Source of the DNA: Kineococcus sp. NBC_00420 | Lineage (GTDB): Bacteria; Actinomycetota; Actinomycetes; Actinomycetales; Kineococcaceae | Direction of reading: 5' to 3' | Assembly: GCF_036021035.1 (NCBI RefSeq) | Contig: NZ_CP107930.1 | Location: 3,286,001 to 3,350,000 of the forward strand | DNA: 64,000 nucleotides | Shown here: positions 10,882 through 31,877 of the stretch, in pieces | Position numbering within the stretch: the first letter of the stretch is position 1 | Layout of the letters: the number at the start of each line of letters is the position of its first letter | The notes under the pieces: generated by a model | What the model was told of the DNA's origin: nothing | What the model saw: the letters and a program-made list of their open reading frames with translations, nothing else | The model's database searches: none | Program-made: the position numbers and the translations under genes

Positions 10882-11867
10882 GACGCCACCGTAGGGGCTG
10901 TGACGTACCCGTGCTCCTTGTCGACGACGTGGCGCAGCGGTTCACCGGCGACGAAGCGGGCGACCTGGTCCCGCAGCAGCAGTTCGAGCCGCGCGGTGAA
11001 CCCCACCGTGTCGCCGGCCAGGTGCGGGGAGACGAGGGCGCCGGGGACGTCCCACCAGGGACTGTCGGCGGCCAGCGGTTCGCGGGTCCAGACGTCGAGG
11101 GCGACACCGCCGATCCGGCGCTCCTGCAACGCTTCCAACAGCGCGTCTTCGTCCACGACCGGCCCCCGGCCGACGTTGACGACGATCGTCCCCGGCCGCA
11201 TCCGCCGCACGACCTCCCGCCCGAGGAGACCGCGGGTGCTCTCGGAGAGGGGGGCCGTGACGAGGACGAGATCGTGATCACCGACCACGTCGGCCAGGGT
11301 CTCCGGGCCGGAGAACGACCCGAACGGAGCAACGGCCGGCCGGGCGCTGCGCACGATCCCGTCGACGCGGACCCCGAGCGCGGAGAACAACCGGGCAACC
11401 TCGGTGCCGATCGACCCCGCCCCGACGACCAGCGCGCGGCGCCCGGCGAGGCTACGGGTCTCGCGGTGCTGCCAGCGGTGCTCGCCCTGGAGCCGCACCG
11501 TCGCGGGGAGGTCCTTGAGGAAGCCCAGGACGCAGGCCAGCACGTACTCCGCGATATCGGTGTCCAGGACGCCGCGGCTGCAGGTCAGCGTCGAGGGGTG
11601 CCGGCGCAACGCGGGGAACAGCAGCCGGTCCGGACCCGCGCTGCTCGTGTGCACCCAGCGGAGCCGCTGCGGTGCAGCGGCTTCCCAGGCCTGCGCGATC
11701 CGCGCGTCGAACCCGTCCCAGACGACGAGCCCGTCGGCGTCCGAGAGGGCCTGGGCCAGTAGGGGATCCTCCGGCCGCACGAGGCGGACGGTGGTGAGCT
11801 CCCGCAGCGGCGTGAGGTCCGGGGACGAACCGGCCGGGACGACGAGGAGGGCGTGGGTGGTGGTCAC
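10878..11867 (-). CDS. D-2-hydroxyacid dehydrogenase, NAD-binding
   Basis: 329 residues. The Rossmann motif GAGSIGTEV, the catalytic arginine in VNVGRGPVVDE, glutamate in WTREPL and histidine in SPHLAGD match the glyoxylate/hydroxypyruvate-reductase-like branch, which reduces 2-keto acids to D-2-hydroxyacids. GTG 11867 overlaps the upstream GGDEF-EAL stop (GTGA), and its own stop overlaps the lipid kinase start, so it is the middle gene of a three-gene coupled operon. Exact substrate unknown. Confidence 0.88.
   Translation of the reverse strand: MTTTHALLVVPAGSSPDLTPLRELTTVRLVRPEDPLLAQALSDADGLVVWDGFDARIAQAWEAAAPQRLRWVHTSSAGPDRLLFPALRRHPSTLTCSRGVLDTDIAEYVLACVLGFLKDLPATVRLQGEHRWQHRETRSLAGRRALVVGAGSIGTEVARLFSALGVRVDGIVRSARPAVAPFGSFSGPETLADVVGDHDLVLVTAPLSESTRGLLGREVVRRMRPGTIVVNVGRGPVVDEDALLEALQERRIGGVALDVWTREPLAADSPWWDVPGALVSPHLAGDTVGFTARLELLLRDQVARFVAGEPLRHVVDKEHGYVTAPTVAS
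10888..10893 (-). promoter_or_regulatory. -10 box TACGGT before the lipid kinase
   Basis: On the minus strand TACGGT is 6 nt upstream of GTG 10881. It would allow the kinase to be made from a leaderless transcript independently of the operon. Confidence 0.5.
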
Positions 11868-14137
11868 CGGACCATCCTGGCGATCCGGTCCTGCCCTCCG
11901 GCGGCGGGGACGGGGGAGTGCCCGGCCAGCCAGCCGAGGACGGCGGAGCCGGGCATCGGTCGTGCGTGGAGGTAGCCCTGCGTCTCGTCGACGCCGAGTT
12001 CGGCCAGGCGGCGCAGGGTCTCCGCGTCCTCGACCCCTTCGACGAGCATCCGCAGCCCGAGGCTGTGCGCGAGGTCGGCGGTGCTCGCGATGATCGCCGC
12101 CGTGCGGGGATCTCCCGTCAGGCGCACGGTGAAGGCGCGGTCCAGCTTGAGCTCGGCGGCGGGCAGGTCCTGCAGGTAGGCGAGGGAGGAGTACCCCGTC
12201 CCGTAGTCGTCGATGCTCACCGAGGTGCCGAGCAGCAGGAGGTCCTCGATCGTCTCCCGGCTGCGCTCGGGGTCGTCCATCAACGTCGTCTCGGTGATCT
12301 CGAGGACCAGCGCGGCGGGGTCGAGGCCGGACTCCTGGAGCACCGTCGCGACCAGGTCGGGCAGCGCGGGGTTCAGCAGGCAGCTCGTCGCCAGGTTCAC
12401 CGAGATGCGCAACGGACGGCCGTGCCGGGCCCAGGTGGTGGCGTCGGCCGCGGCCTGACGCAGGACGGTCGCCGTGATCTCGGCCATCAGCCCGTGGCTC
12501 TCGGCGAGGTCCAGGAAGGCGGCCGGGGCGAGGGTCCCCAACCGCGGGTGCTGCCAGCGGACGAGGGCCTCCATGCCCACGGTCCGGCCGGTCCGCACGT
12601 CCACCTGGGGCTGGTAGTACGGCACGAGCTGGCCGGCCGTCATCCCGTGCGCGAGTTCCTCGGCCAGGAACCGTTGCGCCCGCGCGGCCCGGTCGGCCTC
12701 GTCGTCGTAGACCGCGAACCCTCCGCCGGCGCGTTTGGCGACGTACATCGACGCGTCCGCGCGGCGCAGCAGTTCCCCCGCGGGGTCGGCGACGGGTCCG
12801 TGACCGCTCAGGGGCCACGACGCGATGCCGGTGCTCGAGGCGAGGGAGGTCCAGCGCGAGCCCACGAGGACGGGGTCACCGAGGACCTCCCCGATCCGGA
12901 CGGCGACCGCGCTCGCCTCCGCCGCGCCGCGTCCGGGCAGCAGGACGGCGAACTCGTCACCGCCGACCCGGGTCAGCAGGCCGCCGACGGGGACGACGCC
13001 GCGGACCCGCTGGGCCGTCAGCTGCAGCAGGAGGTCTCCCTGGGCGTGCCCGTGGGTGTCGTTGACCTCCTTGAACCCGTCGAGGTCGAGCAGCAGCAGA
13101 GCGACGGGGGTGTCGTCCTCCTGGGTCCGCCGCAGCGCCGCCGCCAGGGCTCGGCGGTTGGGCAGACCGGTGAGGTCGTCGGTGAGGGCGAGTCGTCGGC
13201 TGTCGGCGAGGCGGAGCACCTCGCGGAAGACGACCGCACCCTTGAACCCCACTCCGACCAGGCCCAGCAGGGCGAGCTGGGCGGTGGGGGCGGGCAGCCG
13301 GTCGACGTGGTCGACGGCCAGCAGCGAGCAGCTGATGACCAGCACGACGAGCGGGGTGAGCATGGTCGACCACCCGGCGACGACCCGCTCCGCCACGTGC
13401 TCGGTGCCGCGCGCCCAGGAGGCCAGGCAGACCAGGGCGAGCGCCACGAGACGGCCGGCGTCGACCGCCGGGCTCAGGGCGGGCCCGGCGAACGTGCCGC
13501 ACAGGCGGAACACGCCGGCGACGTCGGACAGCGTGAGCACCCCGAACGCCACGACCAGCAGCACCGTTCCGCGCTCGGTCCGTCGGCGCAGGATGGCGCA
13601 GGTCGCCAGGGCCACGGAGAACAGCAGCAGGTCGAACGCGGGTCGGCCGACGAGGGCGAGGGCCGCGAGGTGACCGACCCCGGTCGCCTCGGCGACGGGC
13701 TCGACGAGCACCGCCGAGGCGAACGCCGCGAGGGCGATCATGGTGAGCGCGCCGTCCAGCCAGGCGCTCGGGAGGAGGTCCTGCACGCGCCGGCGCAGCA
13801 GGCCCATCTGGGCGCTGTAGAAGACGGGGTAGGCCAGCAGTGCGAGCGAGGCGAGGACCTGGTGCTCGGTCAGGGCCGCCGCGGTGACGTCGCTCGCGCC
13901 GTGCGAGGACAGCAGGAGGACCAGGTGGGTCACGGCGAGCAGCGCGGCACCGGCCGCGAAACCGGCCCAGACCCACCGGCTCTCCGCCCGGACGAGGGGA
14001 CGGACGACGAGGGCCAGGAGCAGCAGGACGAGGAGCACGACGTAGCCGGCCCTGGCCGACGGCGACGCGAGCCCGGCTGCGCCGAGGGCACACAGCAGCG
14101 CCAGCCCGGTCACCCTGCGTCGAGGAATCGTCTTCAC
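11864..14137 (-). CDS. Membrane GGDEF-EAL protein
   Basis: 757 residues from GTG 14137 (AAGGTGG upstream; the open frame continues to 14230 without family-like sequence). About ten hydrophobic segments occupy residues ~10-310. GGDEF (~320-480) is intact (RVGGDEF) but has no RxxD inhibitory site. EAL (~500-745) is intact: EALVRW, NLATS, EITET, IDDYGTGYSSL, LKLD, VEGVE. Either or both activities are possible. First gene of a coupled operon with a dehydrogenase and a lipid kinase. Confidence 0.92.
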   Translation of the reverse strand: MKTIPRRRVTGLALLCALGAAGLASPSARAGYVVLLVLLLLALVVRPLVRAESRWVWAGFAAGAALLAVTHLVLLLSSHGASDVTAAALTEHQVLASLALLAYPVFYSAQMGLLRRRVQDLLPSAWLDGALTMIALAAFASAVLVEPVAEATGVGHLAALALVGRPAFDLLLFSVALATCAILRRRTERGTVLLVVAFGVLTLSDVAGVFRLCGTFAGPALSPAVDAGRLVALALVCLASWARGTEHVAERVVAGWSTMLTPLVVLVISCSLLAVDHVDRLPAPTAQLALLGLVGVGFKGAVVFREVLRLADSRRLALTDDLTGLPNRRALAAALRRTQEDDTPVALLLLDLDGFKEVNDTHGHAQGDLLLQLTAQRVRGVVPVGGLLTRVGGDEFAVLLPGRGAAEASAVAVRIGEVLGDPVLVGSRWTSLASSTGIASWPLSGHGPVADPAGELLRRADASMYVAKRAGGGFAVYDDEADRAARAQRFLAEELAHGMTAGQLVPYYQPQVDVRTGRTVGMEALVRWQHPRLGTLAPAAFLDLAESHGLMAEITATVLRQAAADATTWARHGRPLRISVNLATSCLLNPALPDLVATVLQESGLDPAALVLEITETTLMDDPERSRETIEDLLLLGTSVSIDDYGTGYSSLAYLQDLPAAELKLDRAFTVRLTGDPRTAAIIASTADLAHSLGLRMLVEGVEDAETLRRLAELGVDETQGYLHARPMPGSAVLGWLAGHSPVPAAGGQDRIARMVR

Positions 14138-14170
14138 AACGCCACCTTCGGCGCTGAACGGGTGCCGGAA

Positions 14171-14194
14171 GGGTGGTTTGACGTTCAACCACCC
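14171..14194. promoter_or_regulatory. Inverted repeat in the promoter region of the GGDEF-EAL operon
   Basis: GGGTGGTT and AACCACCC form an 8-bp dyad around an 8-nt spacer, 34 nt upstream of GTG 14137. Position and symmetry suggest an operator or an mRNA leader hairpin; no regulator can be named. Confidence 0.4.
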
Positions 14195-14217
14195 GGATGG
14201 CCCCGGGACGTAGGAGA

Positions 14218-14247
14218 GGCCCACCCCCACGACAGCGGGGGTGGGCC
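14218..14247 (-). terminator. Terminator hairpin of the NADP oxidoreductase gene
   Basis: An 11-bp perfect GC stem (GGCCCACCCCC / GGGGGTGGGCC) with an 8-nt loop, 20 nt past the stop of the 14267-14938 gene. Confidence 0.75.
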
Positions 14248-16079: not shown

Positions 16080-16225
16080 GACTTCTCCAGTGCTTGTTGC
16101 CGGGGGGTTCGGACACGCGTCGTTGCGCCGTGGCCGACGGTATCCCGACACCGGCGGAGGCGCAGCTCAGGTAGTTGCACCTTCTACCAGACGCGGCCCA
16201 CCCGTACCGGCAGCACCATGGTCCT

Positions 16226-16606
16226 GTGTGCGAGGCGATGCCCGAAGCCGAGCTCGACCTGCCGGCGGACCTGTCCGCGGCCCGTCGGGCCCGAGTGTTC
16301 GTGCGCTCGCGCATGTGCCCGGACCACGCAGGCGACGTCCTGGACCGGGCTCTGCTGGTCATCTCCGAGCTGATCGTCAACGCCGTCGAGCACGGTCAGC
16401 CCCCCGTCCGCGCCTGCGTGGACTGCCGCTCGGGGGTCCTGCACCTCGAGGTCAGCGACGGCAGCGAGGCCACGCCGCAGCTGTCCACCCCCGGCGCCGA
16501 CGCCGAGTCCGGACGCGGGGTCGGGCTCGTCGCCGTCCTGAGCTCCGCCTGGGGTGTGCGCCCCGAGGTGGGCGGCAAGACCGTCTGGTGCGACCTCTCC
16601 GCCTGA
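16226..16606 (+). CDS. RsbW-like ATP-binding (anti-sigma type) protein
   Basis: 126 residues from GTG 16226 (ATG 16238 is an alternative). A HATPase_c_2 domain fills the protein: N-box ELIVNAVEHG, a short G1 region (VSDGSE) and G2 loop GRGVGLVAV. The family comprises serine kinases/anti-sigma factors that bind a sigma factor or an anti-sigma antagonist. It converges tail-to-tail on a PP2C phosphatase gene with a shared hairpin over both stops, so it is a plausible partner of that phosphatase. No STAS or sigma gene is in the window. Confidence 0.85.
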   Translation: MCEAMPEAELDLPADLSAARRARVFVRSRMCPDHAGDVLDRALLVISELIVNAVEHGQPPVRACVDCRSGVLHLEVSDGSEATPQLSTPGADAESGRGVGLVAVLSSAWGVRPEVGGKTVWCDLSA

Positions 16607-16621
16607 CCCCGCCGGGTCAGG
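16602..16621. terminator. Hairpin spanning both convergent stop codons
   Basis: CCTGACCC-cgcc-GGGTCAGG contains the TGA of the ATP-binding protein gene on one arm and, on the other strand, the TGA of the PP2C gene. Confidence 0.65.
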
Positions 16622-19109
16622 GCGTGGGGTGCACGCGGAGCAGAAGGAGCGCGATGTCGTCCTCACTGCCCGGTGACATCCGCTCCAGCAGCGTGTCGCA
16701 GAACCGGTCCGCGGGCAGTCCGGCGAGCTCGACGGCGTTGCGCCGCAACCGGTCGAGCCCCTCGTCGAGGTCCTCATCGCGGCGTTCCACCAGCCCGTCG
16801 GTGTAGAGCAGCAGCGTATCGCCCTCGAGCAGGGCGACGGTGTGGTCGTGCCGTGGCAGGCCGGAGTCGAGACCCAGCAGCAGGTCGTGCGGGCGGTCCA
16901 GGAGTTCTGCCCCCCCGTCGGCGTGCACCACCAACGGGGGGAGGTGGCCCGCGCTGGACCAGCGCAGCACGCGCGTGGCGTCGGTGGGGCCCTGTTCGAC
17001 CCGGGCCAGGACGGCCGTCCCGAGGGTGTCGACGGCGAGGTCGCGCATCGCCCGTTCCAGGGCCTCGAGGATGCGGGCGGGGGAGTCGCGGAGGGCGTGG
17101 GCCACCCCGCGCAGGACGTTGCGCACCTGCGCCATCGCGACGGCCGCACCCCGGTCGTGGCCGGTGACGTCGCCGATCACCAGGAAGGTGCTGCCGTCGG
17201 CGACGGTGAAGCCGTCGTACCAGTCACCACCGATCTGGGCGCCGTCGGCGGCGGCGACGTAGCGCGCGACGAGTTGCAGGTCGTCGAAGCGGGGGAGTTC
17301 CGTGAGGAGGCTCAACTGCAGTTCCTCGGCCAGACCGCGCTGCGCGGCGGAGAGTTGCGCGTTGTCCAGGCCGAGTCCGATCTGACGGCTGACCTCCTCC
17401 AGCGTGGCGGTGTCCTCGGCGGAGAACGGTTCGCGGTCCCCGGTACGGGCCACGGTCAGCAGTCCCCGGGTCCGGCCCCGCCCGCGCAACGGCAGGACGA
17501 CGGTGGTGGCGGGAGCCAGGTCGAGCAGGAGTTCGTGCGCGCGCCCGGGCTCCAGGAGGTGACCGGGGGGCAGGGCCGCCGAGTTCTCCAGGACGAGGGT
17601 CCCGTGGGTCAGCGCGTCGCGGACCGGGGAGTCGTCGGCGAACGCCTCGACCCGCAGTCCGCGGTACTCCTCGAGGACCCCCCGCAGCAGGGGGTCGTGG
17701 TGCCAGGCCCCCACGTCGCGGAGGCGTTTCCTCCAGGGCGCCGTGCCCCCGTCGAGGGTGGACACGATGGTCCAGTCGGCGAACCGCGGCACCAGCGCAC
17801 GGACGGCGTCCAGCAGGGCCTGTTCGGCGTCGAGGGTCTCGGCGAAGGCGCCGGCGACCTCGGCCAGGGCGGCGGCCCGTTCCGCGTTGCGTTCCGCTTC
17901 CTGTTGCGCCGCACGTCGTCCGCTGATGTCCAGGAAGTAGATCCCGACCCCGTCGTCGACGGGTACGACCCGGACCTCGAACCACGCGTCGAGAGGAGGT
18001 GGGTAGTAGGCGTCGAAGGAGACGTTCGCGCCGCCGTCCGCGACGCGGCGGTACTCCTGGAGCACCGGCGAGTCCTCGATCCCCGGGAACGCCTCGTGGG
18101 CCGTGCTGCCGAGGAACTCCGCCCGGGGGGTGGCGAGGACCCGTTCGGCCTCGGTGTTGGCGTAGGAGAAGCGTCCGTCCCGGTCGAGGGCGACGTACCC
18201 GACGGCCATGGTGTCGAGGACGGTCCCGAGGCGCGCCTCCCCCCGGCGCAACGCCGTCAGGTCGGTCACCGCACCCACGAACCGGTCTATCCGGCCGTCC
18301 GGGCCGGGGGCGGGTTTCCCGCGGGCGGCGATCCAGCGCAGTCCGCCGTCGGGGCGCAGGATCCGGAACTGCGCCTCGTAGATCCCGCTGGAGGCGATGG
18401 CCTCGGTCAGCGCGCGGGTGACCTCGGGGAGGTCGTCGGGGTGGACGGCGGCGTTGAAGCTGTCGATGCGACCGCCGAACGTCTCCGGGGTGAGCCCGAA
18501 CAACTCCAGCAGGACGTCGTCCCAGACGAGGGAATCGTCGGCGAAGTTCCACTCCCAGGTGCCGATCCCCGCCGCCGTGGCGGCCGTTCCGAGTTCCGCG
18601 GCCCGCTGCCGCCCCCGGTAGTCGTCGGTGAGGGCGGAGATCTCGAGGTGCCCGGTGGCGGCGTTCGCGAGCTCGGTGAGGATCTCCTGGTCGTGGGCCG
18701 TCCAGCCGCGGGGTTCGTGCTGGTGCACGCAGAGCGACCCCACGACGTGGCCGTCGTCGGCGACCATCGGGACCCCGAGGTAGGACCCGAGGAACCCCGT
18801 CACCACGGGCCGGCGGTCGCGCACCCGGACGTCGTGGACGGCGTCGGCGACGACGAGGGCCTGCCCCTCCTCCACGACGATGGCGCAGAAGGAGTCGATG
18901 CGGGAGGTGCTCGAGCCGGCGTTCTGCGCCGTCTCGCCGGCCGCGGTGACGGTGTGGCGCACGTCGGTGACCAGCGAGACCTCGGCGGAGGTGGTGTGCA
19001 GCATCTGCGCCGCCAACGACGTCACGATGTCGAGGGCGCCGAGCGGGGCGGCACCCAGCAGGCGCTCGGTCGCGGCGATGCGGGCGTCCTCGCCGGTCTG
19101 TTCCGTCAC
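16617..19109 (-). CDS. GAF-PAS-PAS-GAF-PP2C (SpoIIE/RsbU-type) serine phosphatase
   Basis: 830 residues from GTG 19109, preceded by GAGGGGAG; an in-frame GTG at 19154 has no ribosome-binding site. Order: GAF (~10-160), PAS (~175-300), PAS (~300-410), GAF (~430-595), PP2C-type SpoIIE domain (~615-830). Metal aspartates are visible in IGGDWYD, IGDVTGHD and SEDDIALL. Such phosphatases dephosphorylate STAS anti-anti-sigma proteins in partner-switching stress pathways. Several sensory inputs precede one catalytic output. No membrane segments. Confidence 0.9.
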   Translation of the reverse strand: MTEQTGEDARIAATERLLGAAPLGALDIVTSLAAQMLHTTSAEVSLVTDVRHTVTAAGETAQNAGSSTSRIDSFCAIVVEEGQALVVADAVHDVRVRDRRPVVTGFLGSYLGVPMVADDGHVVGSLCVHQHEPRGWTAHDQEILTELANAATGHLEISALTDDYRGRQRAAELGTAATAAGIGTWEWNFADDSLVWDDVLLELFGLTPETFGGRIDSFNAAVHPDDLPEVTRALTEAIASSGIYEAQFRILRPDGGLRWIAARGKPAPGPDGRIDRFVGAVTDLTALRRGEARLGTVLDTMAVGYVALDRDGRFSYANTEAERVLATPRAEFLGSTAHEAFPGIEDSPVLQEYRRVADGGANVSFDAYYPPPLDAWFEVRVVPVDDGVGIYFLDISGRRAAQQEAERNAERAAALAEVAGAFAETLDAEQALLDAVRALVPRFADWTIVSTLDGGTAPWRKRLRDVGAWHHDPLLRGVLEEYRGLRVEAFADDSPVRDALTHGTLVLENSAALPPGHLLEPGRAHELLLDLAPATTVVLPLRGRGRTRGLLTVARTGDREPFSAEDTATLEEVSRQIGLGLDNAQLSAAQRGLAEELQLSLLTELPRFDDLQLVARYVAAADGAQIGGDWYDGFTVADGSTFLVIGDVTGHDRGAAVAMAQVRNVLRGVAHALRDSPARILEALERAMRDLAVDTLGTAVLARVEQGPTDATRVLRWSSAGHLPPLVVHADGGAELLDRPHDLLLGLDSGLPRHDHTVALLEGDTLLLYTDGLVERRDEDLDEGLDRLRRNAVELAGLPADRFCDTLLERMSPGSEDDIALLLLRVHPTP

Positions 19110-19221
19110 CCGTCGTCTCCCCTCGAAGGGGCGGCGTCGAATGCTCCCCGTCACACATCATGACGCAGAGTGGCCGATCTTGTGGGCCCGAGCGTCTAGA
19201 AGAGTCTAGAAGATGTGTGGG

Positions 19222-21339
19222 TCAGGTTCCGGTGACGCGGACCGCGACGATCGCCACGTCGTCGTCGCTGCCGTCGGGCAGCATCCGCAGCAGCAGCTGG
19301 TCGCAGAGCGTCTCCACGTCCGCCCCCTCCACCCCGGCCACGGCGTGCACGACGTCGCGCAGTTCACCCAGACGGACGTCCATCGGACGGTCGCGCCGTT
19401 CCACCAGACCGTCGGTGTAGAGCAGCAGCGTCGACCCCCGCTCGAGGCGAGCCTCCTGCTGCACGCGCTGCTGACCGGCGCCGAGGCCCAGGACGATCCC
19501 CTCCCCGGCCAGGAAGCGCACCGACCCGTCCGGGTCGGCGACCACCGGGGGCAGGTGACCGGCCGTGCACCAGCGGATCACCCGACTGCCGTCGGCGGAC
19601 TCGGGGTCGAGCTGCAGGACGACGGCCGTGGCCAGCGTCGTCAGGCCGAGGCCGGCGAGCACCTCGTCCAGACGCCGCAGCACCTCGTCGGGCTGCGCGC
19701 AGCGGTCGTAGGCCAGCGCCCGCACCAGGGTCCGCAGCTGGCCCATCGCGGCCGCCGCCGACACGTCGTGACCCATGACGTCACCGATGACGACGACGGT
19801 CCGTCCGTCGGGCTGGGTGAACGCGTCGTACCAGTCCCCACCGACCTGCGCCGCCTCCGCCGCCGGGTGGTAACGGGTGGCGATGCACAGCCCGGCCGAC
19901 TGGGTCGGCGGGCTCAACATGCTGCGCTGCAACGTCTCCGATGACGTCCGCTGCTGGGCGTAGAGCCGGGCGTTCTCCAGCGCCACCCCGGCCCGGGCCC
20001 CCAGGTCGCTCGCCGTCGCCAGGTCGTCCTCGGTGAAGGCGGCCCGGTCGGGACCGGAGAGCAGCGTCAGCGACCCCGTCACCAGACCCCGTGCGCGCAA
20101 CGGGACGACGATCGCGCTGCCCAGCCCGAGGCGGCGCAGGACCTGCGCGGTCTCGGTCGTCGCGACGGCGTCGACGAGGTCGTCGGTGACGGTCACCAGC
20201 GTCGGCCCGAGCTCCCCGTGCAGCACCCGCATCGAGATCGAGCCGTCGCCCAGACCGTCGTGCAGCTCCTGGAACCGGTCGGTCTCGGCGGTCATCACCG
20301 GGTTCGCGTGCGACGCGCGCACGTGGCGCGTCCGGCCGCTGCCGTCGAGGAGGGTCGCGAACGCCCACTCGGCGAACTCCGGGACGACCAGCGAGGGCAG
20401 GAGGTCCTGCGCGGCATCGGGATCCAGGACCTCCGACAACTGCTCGGTCACCGCGGAGAGGAACTCCAGCCGGTGCCGGGCGTCGCGGGCGTAGGCCAGT
20501 GCCGCGTCGCGTTCGCGTTCGGCCTGCACCCGCAACGTCACGTCGGACTGCACGCCGACGAAGTGGGTGACCCGACCCTCGGCGTTGCGGACGGGTGAGA
20601 TCACCACCTCGTTCCAGAACGCCGTGCCGTCCTTGCGGTAGTTCAGCAGCAGTTCCGTGATCGTCTCGCCCGTCGCCAGGGCGCTCCGGATCCGTTGGAC
20701 CGCGTCGTGGTCGGTCTCCGGTCCCTGCAGGAACCGGCAGTTCGTCCCCAGCACCTCCCGGCCGTACCCGGTCACCCGCTCGAAGGCGGGGTTCACCCAC
20801 ACCAGCGGGTTGTCCGGCTGCGTCGGGTCGGAGATCGTGAACGACAGGTCGCTGGCCAGGACCGCGCGGCTGTGCAGGCGCTCCGCGGACTCCTTCGCGT
20901 CGCGGACCAGCTCTTCCTCGCGCAGCGGCAGCAACGCCACCAGGGCCAGCCCGCTGAGCTCGTCGACGGGCGCGTCCGACAGCGGAAGGCCGATGACCCA
21001 CAACGCCTCACGGGCGCCCGACATGTCCGAGGAACGGGCCGCGGTGACGCGTTCGCCGTGCACGGGCTCACCACGGGCGATGCGCGACAACGGCGACGAA
21101 CCCGTCGCCGGGTCCGAGATGTCGATGCCGTCGGCAGCCTGCAGACCCGCCGCCCGCGACCAGTCGTCCACCGCGCAGGGCAGCGACACCCCGGGGGCGA
21201 GCTGGTCGGCGAGGGGGTTGGCGAACAGGACCACGCCGTCGGCCACCCGCACCAGCAGCACCGCACCGGGCTGGCCGTGCAGGACCTGAGGCAACTGCGC
21301 GGCGGTCCCGGCGAACGCCGTCGAGTTCGTCCCGTCCAT
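19222..21339 (-). CDS. PAS-LOV-GAF-PP2C blue-light-regulated serine phosphatase
   Basis: 705 residues from ATG 21339. Residues ~15-140 look PAS-like. Residues ~155-275 form a LOV domain: NPAFERVTGYGREVLG leads into GTNCRFLQGPETD, whose Cys201 is the residue that forms the flavin adduct in LOV photoreceptors. Flavin-contacting Asn and Gln positions follow (LNYRKDGTAFWNE and FVGVQSDVT). A GAF-like domain (~300-460) and a SpoIIE/RsbU PP2C domain (~480-705; VGGDWYDAF, IGDVMGHD, SDDDVAIV) complete it. Blue light is therefore expected to control dephosphorylation of a STAS-type substrate. The ATG is 7 nt after a TAACCT box; no ribosome-binding site is seen. Confidence 0.93.
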   Translation of the reverse strand: MDGTNSTAFAGTAAQLPQVLHGQPGAVLLVRVADGVVLFANPLADQLAPGVSLPCAVDDWSRAAGLQAADGIDISDPATGSSPLSRIARGEPVHGERVTAARSSDMSGAREALWVIGLPLSDAPVDELSGLALVALLPLREEELVRDAKESAERLHSRAVLASDLSFTISDPTQPDNPLVWVNPAFERVTGYGREVLGTNCRFLQGPETDHDAVQRIRSALATGETITELLLNYRKDGTAFWNEVVISPVRNAEGRVTHFVGVQSDVTLRVQAERERDAALAYARDARHRLEFLSAVTEQLSEVLDPDAAQDLLPSLVVPEFAEWAFATLLDGSGRTRHVRASHANPVMTAETDRFQELHDGLGDGSISMRVLHGELGPTLVTVTDDLVDAVATTETAQVLRRLGLGSAIVVPLRARGLVTGSLTLLSGPDRAAFTEDDLATASDLGARAGVALENARLYAQQRTSSETLQRSMLSPPTQSAGLCIATRYHPAAEAAQVGGDWYDAFTQPDGRTVVVIGDVMGHDVSAAAAMGQLRTLVRALAYDRCAQPDEVLRRLDEVLAGLGLTTLATAVVLQLDPESADGSRVIRWCTAGHLPPVVADPDGSVRFLAGEGIVLGLGAGQQRVQQEARLERGSTLLLYTDGLVERRDRPMDVRLGELRDVVHAVAGVEGADVETLCDQLLLRMLPDGSDDDVAIVAVRVTGT

Positions 21340-21352: not shown

Positions 21353-21406
21353 AGCCCCACTCCGGGGTGGCGCGAGCCTGGCGCGTGGGGCCCGGTGACC
21401 GTCCCC

Positions 21407-23560
21407 TCACACCACGGCGACCGCCGCGGCGCGACGCCGCTCCAGGACCCAGTGCAGCAGCTCCGCCGCCGGGACGGGACGCGAGTGCAGGTACCCCTGC
21501 GACTCGTCGCACCCCGTGCGCCGCAGCAGCTCCAGCGTCGCCTCGTCCTCGACCCCCTCCGCCACGGTCCGCAGACCCAGGTGGTGGGCCAGCTCCACCG
21601 TCCCCGCGACGATCGCCGCGATCCGCTCGTCGCTCAGCGCACGCATCGTGAACGAGCGGTCGATCTTCAGCTCCGTGGCCGGCAGGTTCGCCAGGTAGGC
21701 CAACGAGGAGTACCCCGTCCCGAAGTCGTCGATGCTCAGCGCGCAACCGCGCGCGGTGATCTCGTGGCACATCGCCAGCGCCCGCTCCGGGTCCCGCATC
21801 AGGGTGGTCTCGGTGACCTCGACGACCAGGCGGGAGGGGGCCGTGCCGCTGCGGACGACCTCGTCGAGGACTTCCAGCAGCTGCGGGTCCGACAGGTACG
21901 TCGTGGAGGTGTTGATCGACAACCGCAGGTCGAGCCCCGCCGCGCGCCACCGGGCCAGGTCGGCGCCCGCGGTCCGGGCGACGTGGGAGGTGAGGGCCGG
22001 CATCAGCCCGCGCTCCTCGACGATCGAGAGGAACGCGGCGGGGGCGAGCAGCCCGTGCCGGGGGTGCTGCCAGCGCACCAGGGCCTCGACGCCGACGACC
22101 TCGCCGCTGCGCAGGCAGAGCTGGGGTTGGTAGTGCACCTCGAACGGCAGGGCCTGCGGGCACTCGAAGGCGGCGTGCAGGTCCTCGGTCAGGTCGGCGC
22201 GCCCCCGCCAGAGCCGGTCGATCTCGTCGTCGTGCAGCGTGACGCCGCCCCCGCCGCCCTTCGCCACGTACATCGCGGCGTCCGCCCGGCGCAGCAGCTC
22301 CAGCCCGTCGAGGTCGTCGAGACCGGTGGAGGTGGCGACGCCGACGCTGGCGCCGACGTCGAAGGAGCGGCCCTCGACGATCAGGCCGCCGCCGATCGCC
22401 GCGGCGAAGGTCCGCGCGGTGCGCAGTGCGGCGGCCGCGTCGGCGCCGGTGAGGACGACGGCGAACTCGTCGCCGCCGAGCCGCGTCAGCCGTCCCCGCG
22501 GCGGGGTGAGTTCCTGCAGCCGGACGGCCGCGACCTGCAGCAGCCGGTCCCCGACGCTGTGACCGTGGTGGTCGTTGACCTCCTTGAAGCGGTCCAGGTC
22601 GAGCAGGGCGACGGCGACCGGAGTCTCTCCCGCGCAGGCCTCCTCGACGGCCGCGGTGAAGGCCCGGCGGTTGCCCAGCCCGGTCAGCTCGTCGGTGCGG
22701 GCGTCGCGGCGGTCGCGGTCCTGCGCGGTGATCTCGCCGACGAAGCGGAACAACCGCACGCAGGCCAGCAGCATCGCGAGCCCCGCCCAGACCAGCGCGG
22801 CGCGGGCCCCGGGGACGCTGAGGGCGGCGAACGCCGTCACCAGACCCAGCCCGAGCGCCCCGAACGCGCTGAGCGCCAGCGAGAGCGGTGACGGCACCGA
22901 GGGGGCCCCGCGCGAGGGGCGCAGCAGCGCGCACCCGCCGAGGGTGGCGGCGAGCCCGGCCCAGGACAGCGAGGCCAGGACCTGAGCCGTCTCCGAGGGG
23001 TGCACCGCGAGGTGCGCCTGTCCCACCAGCACCACGGCGACGCTCACCACGACCACCCAGCAGCGGGCGTTGCGCACGGCCTGGGCCGAGATCATCACGA
23101 CGAGGTAGGAGGCCAGGAGCACCAGCAGGGCGCCGAGGTGGAAGGCGTGCAGCTGCGTCACGAAGGTGCCCGCCCGGTGGCCGGTGGACGCGACCGCCGT
23201 CAGCAGGATCCCGGTGAACGCGGCCGTGCTCCCGACGCCGAGCAGCCAGTCCGCCCGGCCGGTGCCCGACGTCGAGGTGCGCTGGCGGTTCCAGTGCAGC
23301 AGGGCGCGGTAGAGGAAGAAGCACGTCGTCTGCGCGCAGGCGACGAACGCGACGCCCGTGACGGGGGACCGGATCCCGCCGGCCCGGACGACGGTGTCGA
23401 GCGCGGAGCCGAGGAGCAGCGTCCCGATGCCGAACTGGTAGGAGCGCCACACCGACCCCTCGCCGGCGGGGCGGCGCACCCGGAAGGTCAGGGCCGCGAA
23501 CGAGGCGGCGATGACCGTCGTGCGGACGAGCGCGACCGCGGTGGCGACCGTGTCTCCCAT
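21407..23560 (-). CDS. Membrane GGDEF-EAL protein
   Basis: 717 residues, ATG preceded by GAGGGGG. About eight hydrophobic segments in residues ~5-275. GGDEF (~280-440) has RLGGDEF and no RxxD site. EAL (~460-710) has EALVRW, NTSTT, EVTET, IDDFGTGYSSL, LKIDRS and AEGVE, all consistent with phosphodiesterase activity. The layout closely parallels the 11864-14137 protein, so the two are probably paralogues. The LOV phosphatase starts only 67 nt downstream of its stop and may be partly co-transcribed. Confidence 0.92.
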   Translation of the reverse strand: MGDTVATAVALVRTTVIAASFAALTFRVRRPAGEGSVWRSYQFGIGTLLLGSALDTVVRAGGIRSPVTGVAFVACAQTTCFFLYRALLHWNRQRTSTSGTGRADWLLGVGSTAAFTGILLTAVASTGHRAGTFVTQLHAFHLGALLVLLASYLVVMISAQAVRNARCWVVVVSVAVVLVGQAHLAVHPSETAQVLASLSWAGLAATLGGCALLRPSRGAPSVPSPLSLALSAFGALGLGLVTAFAALSVPGARAALVWAGLAMLLACVRLFRFVGEITAQDRDRRDARTDELTGLGNRRAFTAAVEEACAGETPVAVALLDLDRFKEVNDHHGHSVGDRLLQVAAVRLQELTPPRGRLTRLGGDEFAVVLTGADAAAALRTARTFAAAIGGGLIVEGRSFDVGASVGVATSTGLDDLDGLELLRRADAAMYVAKGGGGGVTLHDDEIDRLWRGRADLTEDLHAAFECPQALPFEVHYQPQLCLRSGEVVGVEALVRWQHPRHGLLAPAAFLSIVEERGLMPALTSHVARTAGADLARWRAAGLDLRLSINTSTTYLSDPQLLEVLDEVVRSGTAPSRLVVEVTETTLMRDPERALAMCHEITARGCALSIDDFGTGYSSLAYLANLPATELKIDRSFTMRALSDERIAAIVAGTVELAHHLGLRTVAEGVEDEATLELLRRTGCDESQGYLHSRPVPAAELLHWVLERRRAAAVAVV

Positions 23561-24744: not shown

Positions 24745-25779
24745 ATGGACCTCCCCGAGCGCACCGCCGACCTCACCGCGGCAGGGATCAGCAAGGACGT
24801 CCTCGCCGGGCGCCGGTTCCGTCGGGTGCACCGTGGGATCCACGTCGCCGCGGACGTTCCCGACTCCCCGGACCTGCGCATCCAGGCCGCCTCCCGGTTG
24901 ATGCGCCCCGGCGACGTGCTGGGTGGCTGGGCCGCGGCCAGGCTCCTCGGCGCGCGACACCTCGACGGCACCGGCCCCGACGGGCCCCAGGACGTCCTCA
25001 TCCACCTGCCCAGGACGTCGAAGCTGCGCCCGAGGCCGGGCATCCGCTACCTGCGCTCGGGCGTCGAGGACGTCCGTGACGGCGCCGATCTGCCCGTGAC
25101 CAGCCCCGAGCAGACGGTCGTCGACCTCATCCGGTGGGCGCAGGACCCGAGGGAGGGGATCGCGGCCGCGGAGTGCCTGCTGGCGACGCCGCTGGTCTCC
25201 GTCGCGGACGTCCGGGCCTTCGCGACGGCTCACCCGGGGATGCGGGGGCTGCCGTCACTGCGCAAGCTCCTCGAGCTGCTGAGCGAGCACTCGTGGTCCC
25301 CGGGGGAGACCCGGCTGCGACTGGTGTGGCAGTGCGACGCGGGTCTTCTCCGCCCCCTGGCCAACGTCGAGGTGTTCACCGCCGACGGGCACCGGCTGGG
25401 TGTGGTCGACCTGCTCGACCCCGTGACTGGTCTCGTCGCCGAGTACGACGGTCGGACGTGGCACGAGCGGCGGGCCCGCGAGGACCACCTGCGGGAGGCG
25501 CGTCTCGAGATCGTCGGGCTACGGGTGTTGCGCTTCTTCGAGCCCGACGTCACCATCCGCCGACCCCGCACCGTCCACCGCCTCCACGAGGCTCAGCGGC
25601 TCGGGCTCGCCGGCGCCGGGTGGTTCGCGCGACTCTCCGACGGTCGAATCGTCCGACCGGGCGGAGGAGTGGAACCTTCGGCGGCTCCTCAGGCGAGAAC
25701 GGCCGCCGAACGTTCCACTCCCTGGCGAGACCTCGGCGGTGCTGCCGCCGCGTTCACCTCGCCGGGCTCCTGGTGGTGA
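24745..25779 (+). CDS. AbiEi-antitoxin-like N-terminus with DUF559/Vsr-like nuclease fold
   Basis: 344 residues from ATG 24745. The N-terminus (LTAAGISKDVLAG..FRRVHRGIHV) resembles the winged-helix/AbiEi_4 start of actinobacterial 'type IV TA AbiEi family' proteins. The C-terminal part (LVAEYDGRTWHERRAREDHL...GLRVLRFF) has the E-x-D-G..H...D...R pattern of DUF559 endonuclease-like domains. Function is unproved; such genes are common and often single. The last ~40 residues read through a transcription-terminator-like palindrome, and the frame overlaps the convergent cyclase gene by 26 bp. This suggests the ancestral stop lay upstream. Start codon uncertain. Confidence 0.75.
   Translation: MDLPERTADLTAAGISKDVLAGRRFRRVHRGIHVAADVPDSPDLRIQAASRLMRPGDVLGGWAAARLLGARHLDGTGPDGPQDVLIHLPRTSKLRPRPGIRYLRSGVEDVRDGADLPVTSPEQTVVDLIRWAQDPREGIAAAECLLATPLVSVADVRAFATAHPGMRGLPSLRKLLELLSEHSWSPGETRLRLVWQCDAGLLRPLANVEVFTADGHRLGVVDLLDPVTGLVAEYDGRTWHERRAREDHLREARLEIVGLRVLRFFEPDVTIRRPRTVHRLHEAQRLGLAGAGWFARLSDGRIVRPGGGVEPSAAPQARTAAERSTPWRDLGGAAAAFTSPGSWW
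25666..25721. terminator. Palindrome inside the 3' end of the AbiEi-like gene
   Basis: A 20-bp stem with one mismatch (GGAGTGGAACCTTCGGCGGC / GCCGCCGAACGTTCCACTCC) and a 16-nt loop. It belongs to the recurrent GAGTGGAACGTTC hairpin family and would terminate the convergent pair. Confidence 0.7.
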
Positions 25780-28114
25780 CGTCGGCGCAGGACCCGACGA
25801 CGGTGACGTTGCGGGTGTCCTTGCCCCGGTACAGCGCCCGGTCCGCGCCGGCCATGACCTCCTCGGCGTCCATCCCCGGCAGCCACTCGCAGACCCCGAC
25901 CGTGCAGGTCTGGCCGTCGGGCACGGCGGCGCGGATGCGGTCCAGCACGTCGACGGCGTCGGCGGCGGCGCAGCCGGGCAGCAGCACGGCGAACTCCTCC
26001 CCGCCCCAGCGCGAGAGCGTGTCCAGCTCGCGCAGCTGCTCGCCCGCCGCCGCGGCGAAGGCCCGCAGCAGCTCGTCGCCCGCGAGGTGGCCACGGGTGT
26101 CGTTGTAGCGCTTGAAGTGGTCGAGGTCGAGCAGCGCGAACGTCAGCGGTGCGCGCTGCCGGGTCGCGCGGGCGATCTCCTGGCGGGCCACGTCGTCCCA
26201 GCGGCGGCGGTTGACCAGGCCGGTGAGGGCGTCGTGCTGGGCGGCGCGGGCGAGCTGGGTGTGCAGGTCGGCGCGGGCGAAGGCGTGCGCGGCCTCCGCG
26301 GCCAGGCCTTCGAGGACGGCGGTGGTCGTCGGGTCCAGCACCGCGACCCGGTGGCGCCAGATGATCCCGAGGACCCCCACGACACGTCCGTCGGCGTCGA
26401 CGACGGGCTGCCAGGCGCCCGACACCGTGCCGCAGGCCTCCGTGAGGGCCGGGCTGGCGTGCGGGTGGGTCTCGACGTCGGCCACGAACACCGGTTCGCA
26501 GAACAGGTAGCTGGTCAGGACCAGGCTGACGTCGTGGCGGACGTCGACGCTCAGCACCAGGTCCTCGGGCAGGCCGACGGTCGACGTCGTCACCAGCCGC
26601 CCCTGCCCGTCGGGCTGCATGAGGTAGGCGGCGTCGGCACCGGCGATCTCGGCGGCGGCGGCGCAGACGGCCTGGCGCGGGTCCTCGGCCCTCAGCACCG
26701 TCCGGGACGCCGCGGCCAGCTGCTCGACCTTGGTGGCGTGCGTCGCCAGCCGGGCGTTCGCCTCCGCGAGGGCGGTCTCGCGGGCCCGGAGGTCGCTGAG
26801 GTCGTGCATGGCGACGACGGCTCCGAGGACCTCGCCGTCGACGCCGACGACGGTGCGCCCGCTGCAGACCACGGGGACCGGGGGGCCGTCCGGGCGGGCG
26901 ATGACGATCTCGGCGTTGCTCACCGTGCCCTCCGCGAGCGTCCGCAGCAACGGGACGTCGGCGGGGGCCAGCGGGGTCGAGCCGTCGGGGCCGTAGAGGT
27001 GGTAGCGCTCGGCGTGCTCGGCGGGGTCGAGGCTGTCGTCGGCGTCGAGACCGTGCCAGGCGCGCGCGGTGTCGTTGAAGAGCAGCAGCCGCCCGTCCCG
27101 GTCGGAGACGACGATGCCGGAGCCGGCGCCGGCCAGGACGGCGTCGGTGAAGCGGCCGTGGCGCTCGGCCGCGGCGCGGGCCTCGACGGCTTCGGTGGTC
27201 GCGGCGGAGAGCCGGCCCATCAGCGAGGTGCGTTCGTCGCGTCCGATCGCCAGGGCGAGGCCCAGCACGGACAGGAAGGCGACGTGGACCTGGACGACCA
27301 GGACCTGGGTGAGGGCGTCGTCGATGGCGGCGAACGGGCCGTGGCCGGTGAGGGTCCCGACGATGGTGATCGCCGCCATCACCAGGTCGGTGACGACGAC
27401 GATCGTGGTGTCGAAGCGCAGGGCCAGCCAGATCGTCGTGGCCAGCGGCAGGAACGACAGGGGCAGTCCCGCGACGCCCCAGAACACCCCGACGTAGGCC
27501 AGCAGGGACAGGCCCAGGGCGCCGACGAGTTCCGCGCCGCCACCGGCGCCGCGCGGGCGGTGGAGCGGGACGCGGTGGATCGCGCGCAGCAGCACCGGGG
27601 TGACCAGGAGGATCCCGGCCCAGTTCCGGGTGAACCAGACGGCGATCCGGATCCAGGTCACGGGTGACCCGTTCAGCAGCATCGTCACGATCCCGCCGAG
27701 GGTCCCCACGGCGCAGGCGGCGGTGGCCACGGCGAGCAGCACCGCGAGCTGGCGGCTGCCGAAGGAGGTCGCGGCGGGGGAGAAGAAGCGTCGACGCAGC
27801 ACCGCGAACAGTTCCGCCTGCACCACGTTGGTCACGACGAAACCCGCGAGGAGGACGGGCCCGGCGCCGGTCGCCGCGTTCACGGCGACGGTGACCGCGG
27901 TGAGGAGGCCGAGGTCGAGCCAGCGCGTCCCGGCTCCGTGCTGAACGCTCAGCCACGCGGCGGCGACGCCGGCGGCGGGCCACACGACGCTCAGGCTGGT
28001 CCCGTCCATGACGGTGAGCCGCCCGAGGTAGACGGCGCCGAGGAACAGGGCGGCGAAGCAGACGCTCCGGGCCGACGCGGGCACGTCGACCCGCGGGAGG
28101 GGCCGGAGGGTCAC
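25754..28114 (-). CDS. MASE1-PAS-GAF-GGEEF diguanylate cyclase
   Basis: 786 residues from GTG 28114. Residues ~10-300 are an eight-or-so-segment membrane region of the MASE1 type (ends in VHVAFLSVLGLALAIGRDER). A PAS domain (~325-450), a GAF domain (~470-610) and a GGDEF domain (~620-775) follow. The signature is RWGGEEF, fully compatible with catalysis, and an I-site RELD lies five residues before it. Predicted c-di-GMP synthesis under membrane, PAS and GAF control. A TAGAAT -10-like box lies at 28149-28154. Confidence 0.9.
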   Translation of the reverse strand: MTLRPLPRVDVPASARSVCFAALFLGAVYLGRLTVMDGTSLSVVWPAAGVAAAWLSVQHGAGTRWLDLGLLTAVTVAVNAATGAGPVLLAGFVVTNVVQAELFAVLRRRFFSPAATSFGSRQLAVLLAVATAACAVGTLGGIVTMLLNGSPVTWIRIAVWFTRNWAGILLVTPVLLRAIHRVPLHRPRGAGGGAELVGALGLSLLAYVGVFWGVAGLPLSFLPLATTIWLALRFDTTIVVVTDLVMAAITIVGTLTGHGPFAAIDDALTQVLVVQVHVAFLSVLGLALAIGRDERTSLMGRLSAATTEAVEARAAAERHGRFTDAVLAGAGSGIVVSDRDGRLLLFNDTARAWHGLDADDSLDPAEHAERYHLYGPDGSTPLAPADVPLLRTLAEGTVSNAEIVIARPDGPPVPVVCSGRTVVGVDGEVLGAVVAMHDLSDLRARETALAEANARLATHATKVEQLAAASRTVLRAEDPRQAVCAAAAEIAGADAAYLMQPDGQGRLVTTSTVGLPEDLVLSVDVRHDVSLVLTSYLFCEPVFVADVETHPHASPALTEACGTVSGAWQPVVDADGRVVGVLGIIWRHRVAVLDPTTTAVLEGLAAEAAHAFARADLHTQLARAAQHDALTGLVNRRRWDDVARQEIARATRQRAPLTFALLDLDHFKRYNDTRGHLAGDELLRAFAAAAGEQLRELDTLSRWGGEEFAVLLPGCAAADAVDVLDRIRAAVPDGQTCTVGVCEWLPGMDAEEVMAGADRALYRGKDTRNVTVVGSCADVTTRSPAR

Positions 28115-29615: not shown

Positions 29616-31877
29616 TCAGACGCGGGTCTCGTCCTCGAGACCCAGCACGCCGGGCACGGGGTAGACGTGGGCGAGCTGTTCCCCGAGCAGTTCCCGCGGC
29701 ACGGCGGGGGAGTACAACCACCCCTGCCCGAGCGGCGCGGAGATGAAGCGGCAGATGTCGGCCTGCTGCTGGGTCTCGACACCCTCGACGACGACGCTCA
29801 GCCCGAGGCGGTTCGCGAGGTCGACGACGCACGTCACGACGGACTGGCCGTTGACGTCGTCGGTGAGGGACTGCGTCAGCGAGCGGTCGATCTTGAGCAC
29901 GTGGACGGGCAGCCGGCCGAGGTAGCCGAAGGCGGAGTACCCGGTGCCGAAGTCGTCGATCGCGATCTGGCAGCCCAGGCCCGCGAGTTCGGTGACGACG
30001 CGTTCGGCGGGGGAGTCCTCGTCCAGGAACACCGACTCGGTGAGTTCCAGGGTCAGCAGGTGCGGGGCGATCCGGTACTGGTCGAGGATCTCGCGGACGA
30101 TGTCGGCGAAACCCGGGGACTGCAGCTGCACGACGGAGACGTTGACGGCCAGGCCGACGCCGACGGAGAACACCCCGGCCTCGTAGGCCCACTGCACGGC
30201 GTGGCGCAGGACGTGCTCGCCGAGCGCGACGACGAGGTTGGACTCCTCGGCGATCGCGATGAACTCCACGGGGGAGATCCGGCCCAGCACCGGGTCCTCC
30301 CAGCGGGCGAGCGCCTCGAACTTGTCGACGCGCCCGGTCGTGAACGACACCACCGGTTGGTAGTGGACGTCGACGCCGCCCTCGGCGACGGCCAGGGCGA
30401 GGCGTTCGCGCATGAGGCTGCGGCGGGCGTGCTCGACCGCGACCGTCCCGGAGTACACCGACACGGCGCCGCCGCCGAGGTGCTTGGCGTCGCGCAGGGC
30501 GATGTCGGCCTGGACGAAGGACGCCATCACGTCGCCGACCGCGTCGGGGTCGGTGCCGTCGGGCGCGCGGCCGGCGATGCCGGCGACCGCGGTCAGCGGG
30601 AAGCGTCCGGCCCCGGCGACCTTCGCCGGTGCGGTGGTGATCGCGGCGATGAGGCTCTCGGCGTGGCGCAGGCAGTGCGCGGGGTCTCCGCGCAGGACGA
30701 CGGCGATCTGGTCACCGCCGGTGCGGTAGGCGCTGCCCTCGAGGCCTCCGACGACGAGCAGGACCTCCTCGGCGGCGGCCCGGATGAGGGCGTCGCCGGC
30801 GCTGACGCCGAGGACGTCGTTGACGTCGTCGAGCCCGAGGAGTTCCAGCAGCACGAGCGACTGGTCGTGGTCGGGTCCGGTGAGGGCGCGCTCCAGCAGG
30901 GTGCGGTTGCTGAGGCCGGTGAGGGCGTCGTGCAGGGCCAGGAACTTCAGGTGCGCGGTGGTGCGGTCGATCGAGCGCGCCGTCGCGGCGTGCCGGATGG
31001 TGAACGTGACGAGCACGGTGATGAACGTCGCGAACAGCACGGGGTCGGCGCGCGGGAACACGACGAGCAGCAGGATGTCGACGAGCAGGATCGGGCCGGG
31101 GATCAGCGAGGCGACTTCGAGGCGGCGGGCGGCGCGTTCGGCGTCGGCCCCGCCGTGGCGGACGACCCCGTCGCGCGGCAGCGTCAGCAGCCCGACGATC
31201 CCGCCGGCCATCGCGAGGGCGGCGGCGACGCCGGCGACCACGGGCTCGTGCGGGAGGCAGACGGCGACCACCGCGGTGGCGACCCCGTTGACGGTGAGGC
31301 CGGTGGCCGAGACCCGCAGGCGGGGCTGTTCGACGCCGAGCGCGACGGCGGAACCCGCGACGAGGGAGGCCGCGACGACGACGAGCAGCGTCGCGGCGTT
31401 CTCGCCGCCCGTCCCGCTGTGCCCGGTGCGGGCGAACGCGTCCCAGCCGAGGGTGATCAGGGCGCTGCCGAGCATCAGCGCGTCGACGACGAGGGGCGGG
31501 TCGTCGCTGCCCGCGCGGGCCCGGACGAGGAGCTGCAGGAGGACGGCCAGCGCACCGAGCTCACCGAGGGCGAACACGACGTGGGACAACGGGAACGGGC
31601 CTAGGTCGAGGTCCGGGAGGAGCCCGGCGACGACCGCACCCAGACCCCACAGGACCCCGGCCGCGAGGTACTTGGCGGAGTTGCGCCCGCGGTGCAGCAC
31701 GATCAACGAGACCGCCGTCGCGGCGATGGACGCGACCCCGACGACGACGACCGCTGTGCGCGGCGTCCCGGGGACCACGGTCGTCAGGTGGGCGAGGACC
31801 GCGGCCAGCGCCAGCAACGCGAGGCCACCGACGACGCGGCCCGCGGTGGGGCGCGTCGGAGCGAGAGGTGCGGCCAT
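29616..31877 (-). CDS. Membrane protein with degenerate GGDEF and intact EAL
   Basis: 753 residues. About nine hydrophobic segments (~15-300). The GGDEF domain (~310-470) reads RTGGDQI, so the EF of the signature is lost and cyclase activity is unlikely. The EAL domain (~480-735) is intact: FEALARW, NVSVV, ELTES, IDDFGTGYSAF, LKIDRS, VEGVE and GQGWLY. Expected to hydrolyse c-di-GMP, perhaps with the dead GGDEF domain binding GTP as a regulator. It is a clear paralogue of 32654-34882 with long identical blocks in the EAL half. Confidence 0.9.
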   Translation of the reverse strand: MAAPLAPTRPTAGRVVGGLALLALAAVLAHLTTVVPGTPRTAVVVVGVASIAATAVSLIVLHRGRNSAKYLAAGVLWGLGAVVAGLLPDLDLGPFPLSHVVFALGELGALAVLLQLLVRARAGSDDPPLVVDALMLGSALITLGWDAFARTGHSGTGGENAATLLVVVAASLVAGSAVALGVEQPRLRVSATGLTVNGVATAVVAVCLPHEPVVAGVAAALAMAGGIVGLLTLPRDGVVRHGGADAERAARRLEVASLIPGPILLVDILLLVVFPRADPVLFATFITVLVTFTIRHAATARSIDRTTAHLKFLALHDALTGLSNRTLLERALTGPDHDQSLVLLELLGLDDVNDVLGVSAGDALIRAAAEEVLLVVGGLEGSAYRTGGDQIAVVLRGDPAHCLRHAESLIAAITTAPAKVAGAGRFPLTAVAGIAGRAPDGTDPDAVGDVMASFVQADIALRDAKHLGGGAVSVYSGTVAVEHARRSLMRERLALAVAEGGVDVHYQPVVSFTTGRVDKFEALARWEDPVLGRISPVEFIAIAEESNLVVALGEHVLRHAVQWAYEAGVFSVGVGLAVNVSVVQLQSPGFADIVREILDQYRIAPHLLTLELTESVFLDEDSPAERVVTELAGLGCQIAIDDFGTGYSAFGYLGRLPVHVLKIDRSLTQSLTDDVNGQSVVTCVVDLANRLGLSVVVEGVETQQQADICRFISAPLGQGWLYSPAVPRELLGEQLAHVYPVPGVLGLEDETRV

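Follow-up and report, generated by a model that had tools for sequence, protein, structure and literature searches.

The stretch of DNA analysed here (the window, 64,000 nucleotides of contig NZ_CP107930.1 from Kineococcus sp. NBC_00420) contains a gene for a 705-residue protein, P0001, that joins a LOV-type blue-light sensor to a SpoIIE/RsbU-type PP2C phosphatase. The gene is read from the minus strand, which a preliminary description of the region had left unstated, with an ATG at position 21339 and a stop at 19222; an alternative GTG start at 21360 would extend the product to 712 residues. The G+C content at its three codon positions (0.76/0.49/0.94, in a window of 72% G+C) is that expected for a coding frame, and orthologues are found in 11 of 11 Kineococcus genomes (own included), the other ten being 67-82% identical. 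Together, the coding pattern and the orthologues ruled out a chance or false frame.

Pfam searches with P0001 returned PAS_9 at residues 173-268 (9e-20), GAF at 391-454 (2.6e-7) and SpoIIE at 510-702 (2.3e-43). A GAF_2 match extending over residues 310-455 (2.4e-6) lies slightly below the curated cut-off. For SpoIIE (PF07228), the family score exceeds the cut-off and the region has the PP2C fold, the start of which is placed at about residue 481 by structural matches, as opposed to 510 by Pfam. The LOV domain is preceded by a PAS domain that was absent from the preliminary description. Pfam finds no match in P0001's own copy of this domain; PAS_8 is matched in 15 of 52 family members, and the model of the P0001 segment resembles PAS folds with moderate Z. 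The features of the locus are collected in Table 1.

Table 1. Features of the LOV-PP2C locus and its surroundings, in coordinates of the window.
Feature	Position	Strand	Evidence
PAS-LOV-GAF-PP2C protein P0001, 705 aa	19222..21339	minus	ORF, Pfam, alignment, model
N-terminal PAS domain, ~residues 25-138	20926..21267	minus	Pfam on relatives, model
LOV domain, ~residues 164-268; Cys201 codon 20737-20739	20536..20850	minus	Pfam, NCBIfam, PDB matches, alignment
LOV-to-GAF linker helix, residues 268-302	20434..20538	minus	Length statistics, model
GAF domain, residues 310-455	19975..20412	minus	Pfam
GAF-to-PP2C helix, residues 437-474; N456-G501 spacing fixed	19918..20031	minus	Spacer count, model
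SpoIIE/RsbU-type PP2C, residues 510-702 (Pfam); Asp 502, 520, 643, 693, 694	19234..19812	minus	Pfam, alignment
HATPase_c_2 protein (RsbW/SpoIIAB-like kinase type), convergent	16175..16606	plus	PF13581, conserved in Kineococcus
GAF-PAS-PAS-GAF-PP2C protein, next gene 67 nt on	16617..19154	minus	Pfam, neighbour comparison
GGDEF or GGDEF-EAL genes	11864-14230, 21407-23560, 25754-28114, 29616-31877, 32654-34882	minus	Pfam

The preliminary description had proposed a photoactive-type LOV domain with Cys201 and Asn/Gln flavin contacts, followed by GAF and a PP2C domain with all its metal aspartates, and both sites proved intact. Residues 198-205 (GTNCRFLQ, within GTNCRFLQG) match the GxNCRFLQ motif with the Cys at position 201. 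N233, N243 and Q264, which we take to be the Asn/Asn/Gln flavin contacts, are all present; they are invariant in alignment A2, itself drawn from Cys-containing rows. The LOV part matches the NCBIfam models YtvA_fam (NF052652; residues 158-279, 1e-40) and BluLightHisKinLov (NF052306; 2e-37) with 139.7 and 128.6 bits, below the respective whole-protein cut-offs of 250 and 450. Among the PDB matches listed (60 of 158), 59 run through residues 155-294, with 6hmj at the top (1.7e-36), and one (3ke6) through the PP2C domain. Conservation was scored in 101 distinct open reading frames (own included), obtained from 112 with a LOV-region match and a PP2C domain by keeping one per identical 450-residue tail. 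The Cys is kept in 92 of them, N233 in 92, N243 in 94 and Q264 in 93; among the nine without the Cys, seven lack the LOV signature and two (L122 and L124, see below) are derived. D502, D520, D643, D693 and D694 are presumably the metal-binding aspartates of the phosphatase. The first two are found in all 101 relatives and the other three in 100, with a gap in the remaining row, and D502, D520, D643 and D693/D694 each have an Asp opposite them in 3ke6. These data support the view that P0001 is, as judged from its sequence, a LOV-PP2C fusion in which both active sites are complete.

The length of the segment joining LOV to GAF obeys a simple rule. Counted from D266 up to the residue preceding L291, which anchors the start of the GAF part, and with the nine Cys-less rows excluded, it differs from that of P0001 by a multiple of seven in 90 of the 92 distinct Cys-containing relatives. 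The lengths are 25 residues (24 rows), 32 (12), 39 (10), 46 (15), 53 (26), 60 (2) and 67 (1); the exceptions, L003 with 35 and L121 with 42, are sisters. On a tree built without the linker by a quick method (50 of 89 inner branches starred), linker length changed at least 19 times, and its class modulo 7 only once, as compared to 17 times for modulo 3 and 18 times each for modulo 4 and modulo 5. Other spacers were followed in those rows in which both anchor residues match P0001 (83 to 92 of 92). The PAS-to-LOV spacer (W114-D171, 87 rows) underwent 25 changes, 22 of them in class modulo 7 (an earlier count with a stricter anchor had given 40/92); for the spacers within GAF (L301-N456, 83 rows) and within PP2C (G501-D643, 91 rows), all 24 changes altered the class. 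The spacer from GAF to PP2C (N456-G501) measures 45 residues in 87 of 88 rows and that within LOV (D171-D266) 95 or 96. The apolar residues of the linker, Ala included, follow the heptad with a value of 0.552, as against a mean of 0.056 and a maximum of 0.113 in 1000 shuffles. In the AlphaFold2 model of P0001 (57 of 92 sequences as input, 52 of 92 for the PAS-part run; pLDDT 91.2, pTM 0.74), residues 268-302 form a single helix and residues 437-474, entering PP2C, form another. Since the linker steps by sevens while most other spacers vary freely, these findings point to a register-locked coiled coil as the path along which LOV would signal to GAF. We read the GAF domain as coupled to PP2C by a rigid helix, and the PAS domain as lying outside the register lock with LOV.

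The sister exceptions belong to a group of four proteins, L003, L121, L122 and L124, that are 60-77% identical. L122 (genome G006) and L124 (genome G002) are Kineococcus LOV-PP2C paralogues in which RELLFW or RDLLFW replaces NCRFLQ and N233 is changed to Ala; L122 has, in addition, His at the position of Q264. Both have linkers of 39 residues, unlike L003 and L121, and agree modulo 7 with the main family. In all four proteins the anchor at the L291 position is Gly. The idea that L122 and L124 are register breakers was weakened by this agreement and by the shared Gly; given the Gly anchor, the shift may lie in either pair, and the register of the group was left without conclusion. The +3 offset of L003 and L121 may be an effect of the anchor.

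The genome of P0001 (5.43 Mb, a single contig) encodes two paralogues with the same layout, 46 and 44% identical and both with NCRFLQG, making three such proteins in total; in one of them, L002, Pfam finds no match to the GAF part. Among the matches examined in this genome, five LOV proteins have the adduct Cys. Two proteins of EAL-DICT-LOV-GGDEF type were noted (L016:4285-6687 and L017:3562-6480, with NCRFLQG and NCRLLQG), through which the c-di-GMP signalling of the strain may receive a blue-light input as well. A search for relatives retained the best 80 of 292 matches, a set in which distant members are under-sampled. Within it, named Kineococcus relatives show 62-78% identity, and loci outside the genus are mostly from Geodermatophilaceae (Blastococcus, Modestobacter, Geodermatophilus, Klenkia), with further relatives in Cellulomonas, Actinotalea, Quadrisphaera and Pseudonocardia. 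In a sample of the class, matches at 1e-105 occur in at least 7 of 197 genomes, which represent 5 of 91 genera and include the genome of P0001; as five candidates were scored per genome, the figure is a lower bound.

Converging on the LOV-PP2C gene is a gene for a HATPase_c_2 protein (PF13581, 43.1 bits for a cut-off of 27.4), an RsbW-like HATPase of the type of kinase that counters such phosphatases. The E and N of its ELIVN motif are kept in 22 aligned rows; we take this ExxxN motif to be the N-box, with a role in RsbW-type kinases. A classical DxGxG box is not seen in the HATPase, and a sequence search of the PDB with this protein (P0002) gave no match at E 0.1. Eleven other Kineococcus genomes were compared (the ten orthologue genomes plus K. 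xinjiangensis; 12 loci, two from one genome), and in 10 of the 11 a convergent HATPase_c_2 gene lies 3' of the orthologous LOV-PP2C gene. It is the immediate next gene in nine; in genome G001, as in the window, a PP2C gene lies between. We scanned 91 relatives with a search model grown from Kineococcus, some of the flanks being short, and found a HATPase downstream in 16. Nine of these are convergent genes in the P0001 orthologue group, and those of L003, L058 and L099 are also convergent; in L111, L112, L115 and L117 the HATPase is on the same strand, with overlapping open frames in three. In L055 the HATPase is upstream. For the 22 Kineococcus rows, a HATPase accompanies 9 of 11 orthologues and 5 of 11 other LOV-PP2C rows; the two orthologue rows lacking it are L106, whose HATPase is found only in a longer stretch (L133), and L022, from genome G010.

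Of the other stretches checked, that of G001 alone has a counterpart of the intervening GAF-PAS-PAS-GAF-PP2C gene in this position (61% identity). Five genes of GGDEF or GGDEF-EAL type, all on the minus strand, are spread over about 23 kb around the LOV-PP2C gene. An operon tie to the one upstream (21407-23560) was set aside, as its best matches near the orthologues vary in place and identity while the HATPase recurs.

Elsewhere in the genome, we found 13 STAS matches, which are candidate substrates of the phosphatase, and 40 HATPase_c_2 matches, 31 of them above cut-off and some probably belonging to histidine kinases. A single SigB/F/G-type sigma factor (4079236-4079886) scores above the curated cut-off; two HATPase matches lie nearby, at 4080279 and 4077721. 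There are 26 SpoIIE-type PP2C places, five of which share an open frame with a HATPase_c_2 match (one below cut-off). A HATPase lies within 1.5 kb of 9 of the 26 PP2C matches (5000 random draws gave a mean of 0.8 and at most 5) and within 3 kb of two of the three LOV-PP2C genes (at least two in 190 of 20,000 random draws); the random placing behind both comparisons ignores gene clustering, and the HATPase set includes the probable histidine kinases. This large set of phosphatases suggests an expanded partner-switching network.

We consider that P0001 is probably a blue-light-controlled serine phosphatase of the RsbU/SpoIIE type, acting by a route for which we infer flavin binding, a dimer, the light effect, the substrate and the sigma output. 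Light would produce an adduct between Cys201 and the flavin, upon which the LOV dimer would alter the pitch or register of its exiting helix (268-302), and the coiled coil would rotate or order the GAF dimer. The rigid helix 437-474 would then either join the two phosphatase domains in an active dimer or part them. P0001 would dephosphorylate a STAS (anti-anti-sigma) protein phosphorylated by an RsbW-like kinase, which in Kineococcus is probably encoded by the convergent HATPase gene, and the partner-switching circuit would shift with daylight. In a broader and more tentative reading, Kineococcus would have a light-driven partner switch, with photoreceptor and phosphatase in one chain and the kinase as convergent neighbour, combined with a family-wide, register-locked LOV-PP2C coiled coil. 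Across the wider actinobacterial family, the linker would have gained or lost whole heptads on at least about 18 occasions, and PP2C would be a third major class of light-gated coiled-coil effectors beside histidine kinases and diguanylate cyclases.

A number of observations weigh against these proposals. The heptad core of the linker is mostly Ala, and V, I, L, M, F, Y and W alone give fractions of 0.05-0.28. The AlphaFold model is a monomer, in which a continuous helix is no proof of a coiled coil, and the tree used to count the changes is the quick one with its starred branches. Slippage of DNA repeats of 21 nt could account for part of the seven-step rule. The 44 linkers with at least 46 residues are indeed repetitive: the mean identity of adjacent 21-mers is 0.535, versus 0.350 for 18 and 0.397 for 24, and the best adjacent pair has a median identity of 0.76. 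However, a pair at 95% or more occurs in just one of the 44; moreover, other step sizes survive in one clade only, and the PAS-LOV spacer takes steps of many sizes. Slippage alone leaves the absence of other step sizes unexplained and, as a substitute for selection on a signalling coiled coil, seems quite unlikely; both may act together, slippage supplying sevens and selection retaining only those. The PAS and GAF domains, both present in P0001, may carry the principal signal, their ligands being the real inputs to a protein whose LOV domain binds flavin and is either uncoupled or chiefly a reporter of redox or flavin state. L122 and L124, which retain GAF and PP2C and have lost the LOV Cys and N233, would fit such a scheme. 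Yet the Cys is kept in 92 of 101 relatives, and it is LOV, not the N-terminal PAS, that the register-locked linker connects to the rest. We regard such a scheme as distinctly improbable.

On the output side, the window has no STAS match, another PP2C gene separates the LOV-PP2C gene from the HATPase, and no HATPase lies 3' of the orthologue in G010. Nor was one found at 6 of 11 other Kineococcus LOV-PP2C rows, L002 of the same genome included; outside the genus adjacency is rare (2 of 69 rows downstream, one upstream). P0001 might be light-regulated and act outside a sigma circuit, on the STAS protein of another output or on some other phosphoprotein. The many STAS and HATPase matches facing a single sigma factor above the SigBFG cut-off, the missing STAS match in the window, and a HATPase without the classical box, would agree with this, as would M. 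smegmatis RsbW2, a kinase lacking direct binding to SigF (PMC10950880; here and below, sources given by PMC number are represented by excerpts). Conversely, the anti-anti-sigma factor RsbV is the target of RsbU and RsbP, as RsfB is of RsfR (PMC12143880, PMC10950880), and the genome does have a SigB/F/G-type sigma factor with a HATPase match nearby. We regard a target outside the sigma circuit as rather unlikely. As to the sign of the response, our guess, by analogy with RsbU, is that light more likely turns the phosphatase on than off. Inhibition by light is the less likely alternative, if a serious one: the sequence offers nothing against it, the sign being unreadable there.

The preliminary description had also seen in this protein a one-protein light-to-sigma switch, turning blue light directly into dephosphorylation of an anti-anti-sigma factor. 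The LOV-PP2C fusion, the partner-switching parts and the HATPase neighbour agree with a light-to-sigma reading, which we consider likely in outline, with a putative output. "Directly" and "one-protein" are not supported as worded: with GAF between LOV and PP2C and a second PAS domain before LOV, other inputs are likely, and the neighbouring HATPase hints at a need for a kinase and a STAS target, at the least, as well.

P0001 shares with Rv1364c, RsbU, RsbP and SpoIIE the PP2C fold and the metal aspartates, and may share with them a helical linker into PP2C, which in such phosphatases is dimeric when active. It differs from them in an input made of LOV, PAS and GAF, and Pfam found no kinase or STAS domain in it. 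YtvA is a LOV-STAS protein of the B. subtilis stressosome with STAS as output; in P0001 the output is the phosphatase itself. In the B. abortus LOV-PAS-HK (6pps, 6ph4) and in YF1, the structure of which we take to be 4gcz, LOV is joined to the effector by helices as in P0001, and in LOV-HK via a second sensor fold; the effector of both is a histidine kinase, unlike that of P0001.

The LOV-SpoIIE protein type is already known, and P0001 joins it. A 2014 review (PMC4844311) places SpoIIE phosphatases among the typical outputs of bacterial flavin blue-light receptors (LOV, BLUF); receptors with this output, like P0001, have the sensor and a SpoIIE-type phosphatase in one chain. As excerpted, the review gives no detail; the PAS-LOV-GAF-PP2C order, the heptad rule and the HATPase neighbour come from the present analysis. 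The literature searched, which excluded most subscription papers, yielded no functional study of a bacterial LOV-PP2C protein, and the fused names LOV-PP2C, LOV-SpoIIE, LOV-PPM and SpoIIE-LOV do not occur in it. The heptad rule and the kinase neighbour make the LOV-PP2C reading testable; the rule predicts that a linker lengthened by seven residues retains light control and that one lengthened by three or four breaks it. If the reading is true, LOV-PP2C proteins would be a route to light-controlled sigma factors. According to a 2022 review, light-regulated orthogonal sigma factors could bring transcription under optogenetic control, a possibility that was still unrealised (PMC9614035).

A coiled-coil linker dimerises and activates the RsbU phosphatase, and the same has been proposed for other inputs including PAS and GAF (PMC12143880). 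Sensor-effector coiled coils are likewise found in PadC and LadC, the phytochrome- and LOV-regulated diguanylate cyclases: linker differences among PadCs are divisible by seven in 54% (PMC9587094), and register switching is described for the LOV cyclase MsLadC (PMC12805367). Conserved linker lengths in LOV effectors are credited by PMC9587094 to Glantz 2016 (PNAS), which may already have reported such periodicity. The P0001 family differs from PadC and LadC in its PP2C output, reached through GAF, and in the strictness of the rule, obeyed by 90 of 92 members as against 54% of PadCs. If true, the mechanism proposed here would link the coiled-coil control of general-stress phosphatases (PMC12143880) to the register switching of light-regulated cyclases (PMC9587094, PMC12805367).
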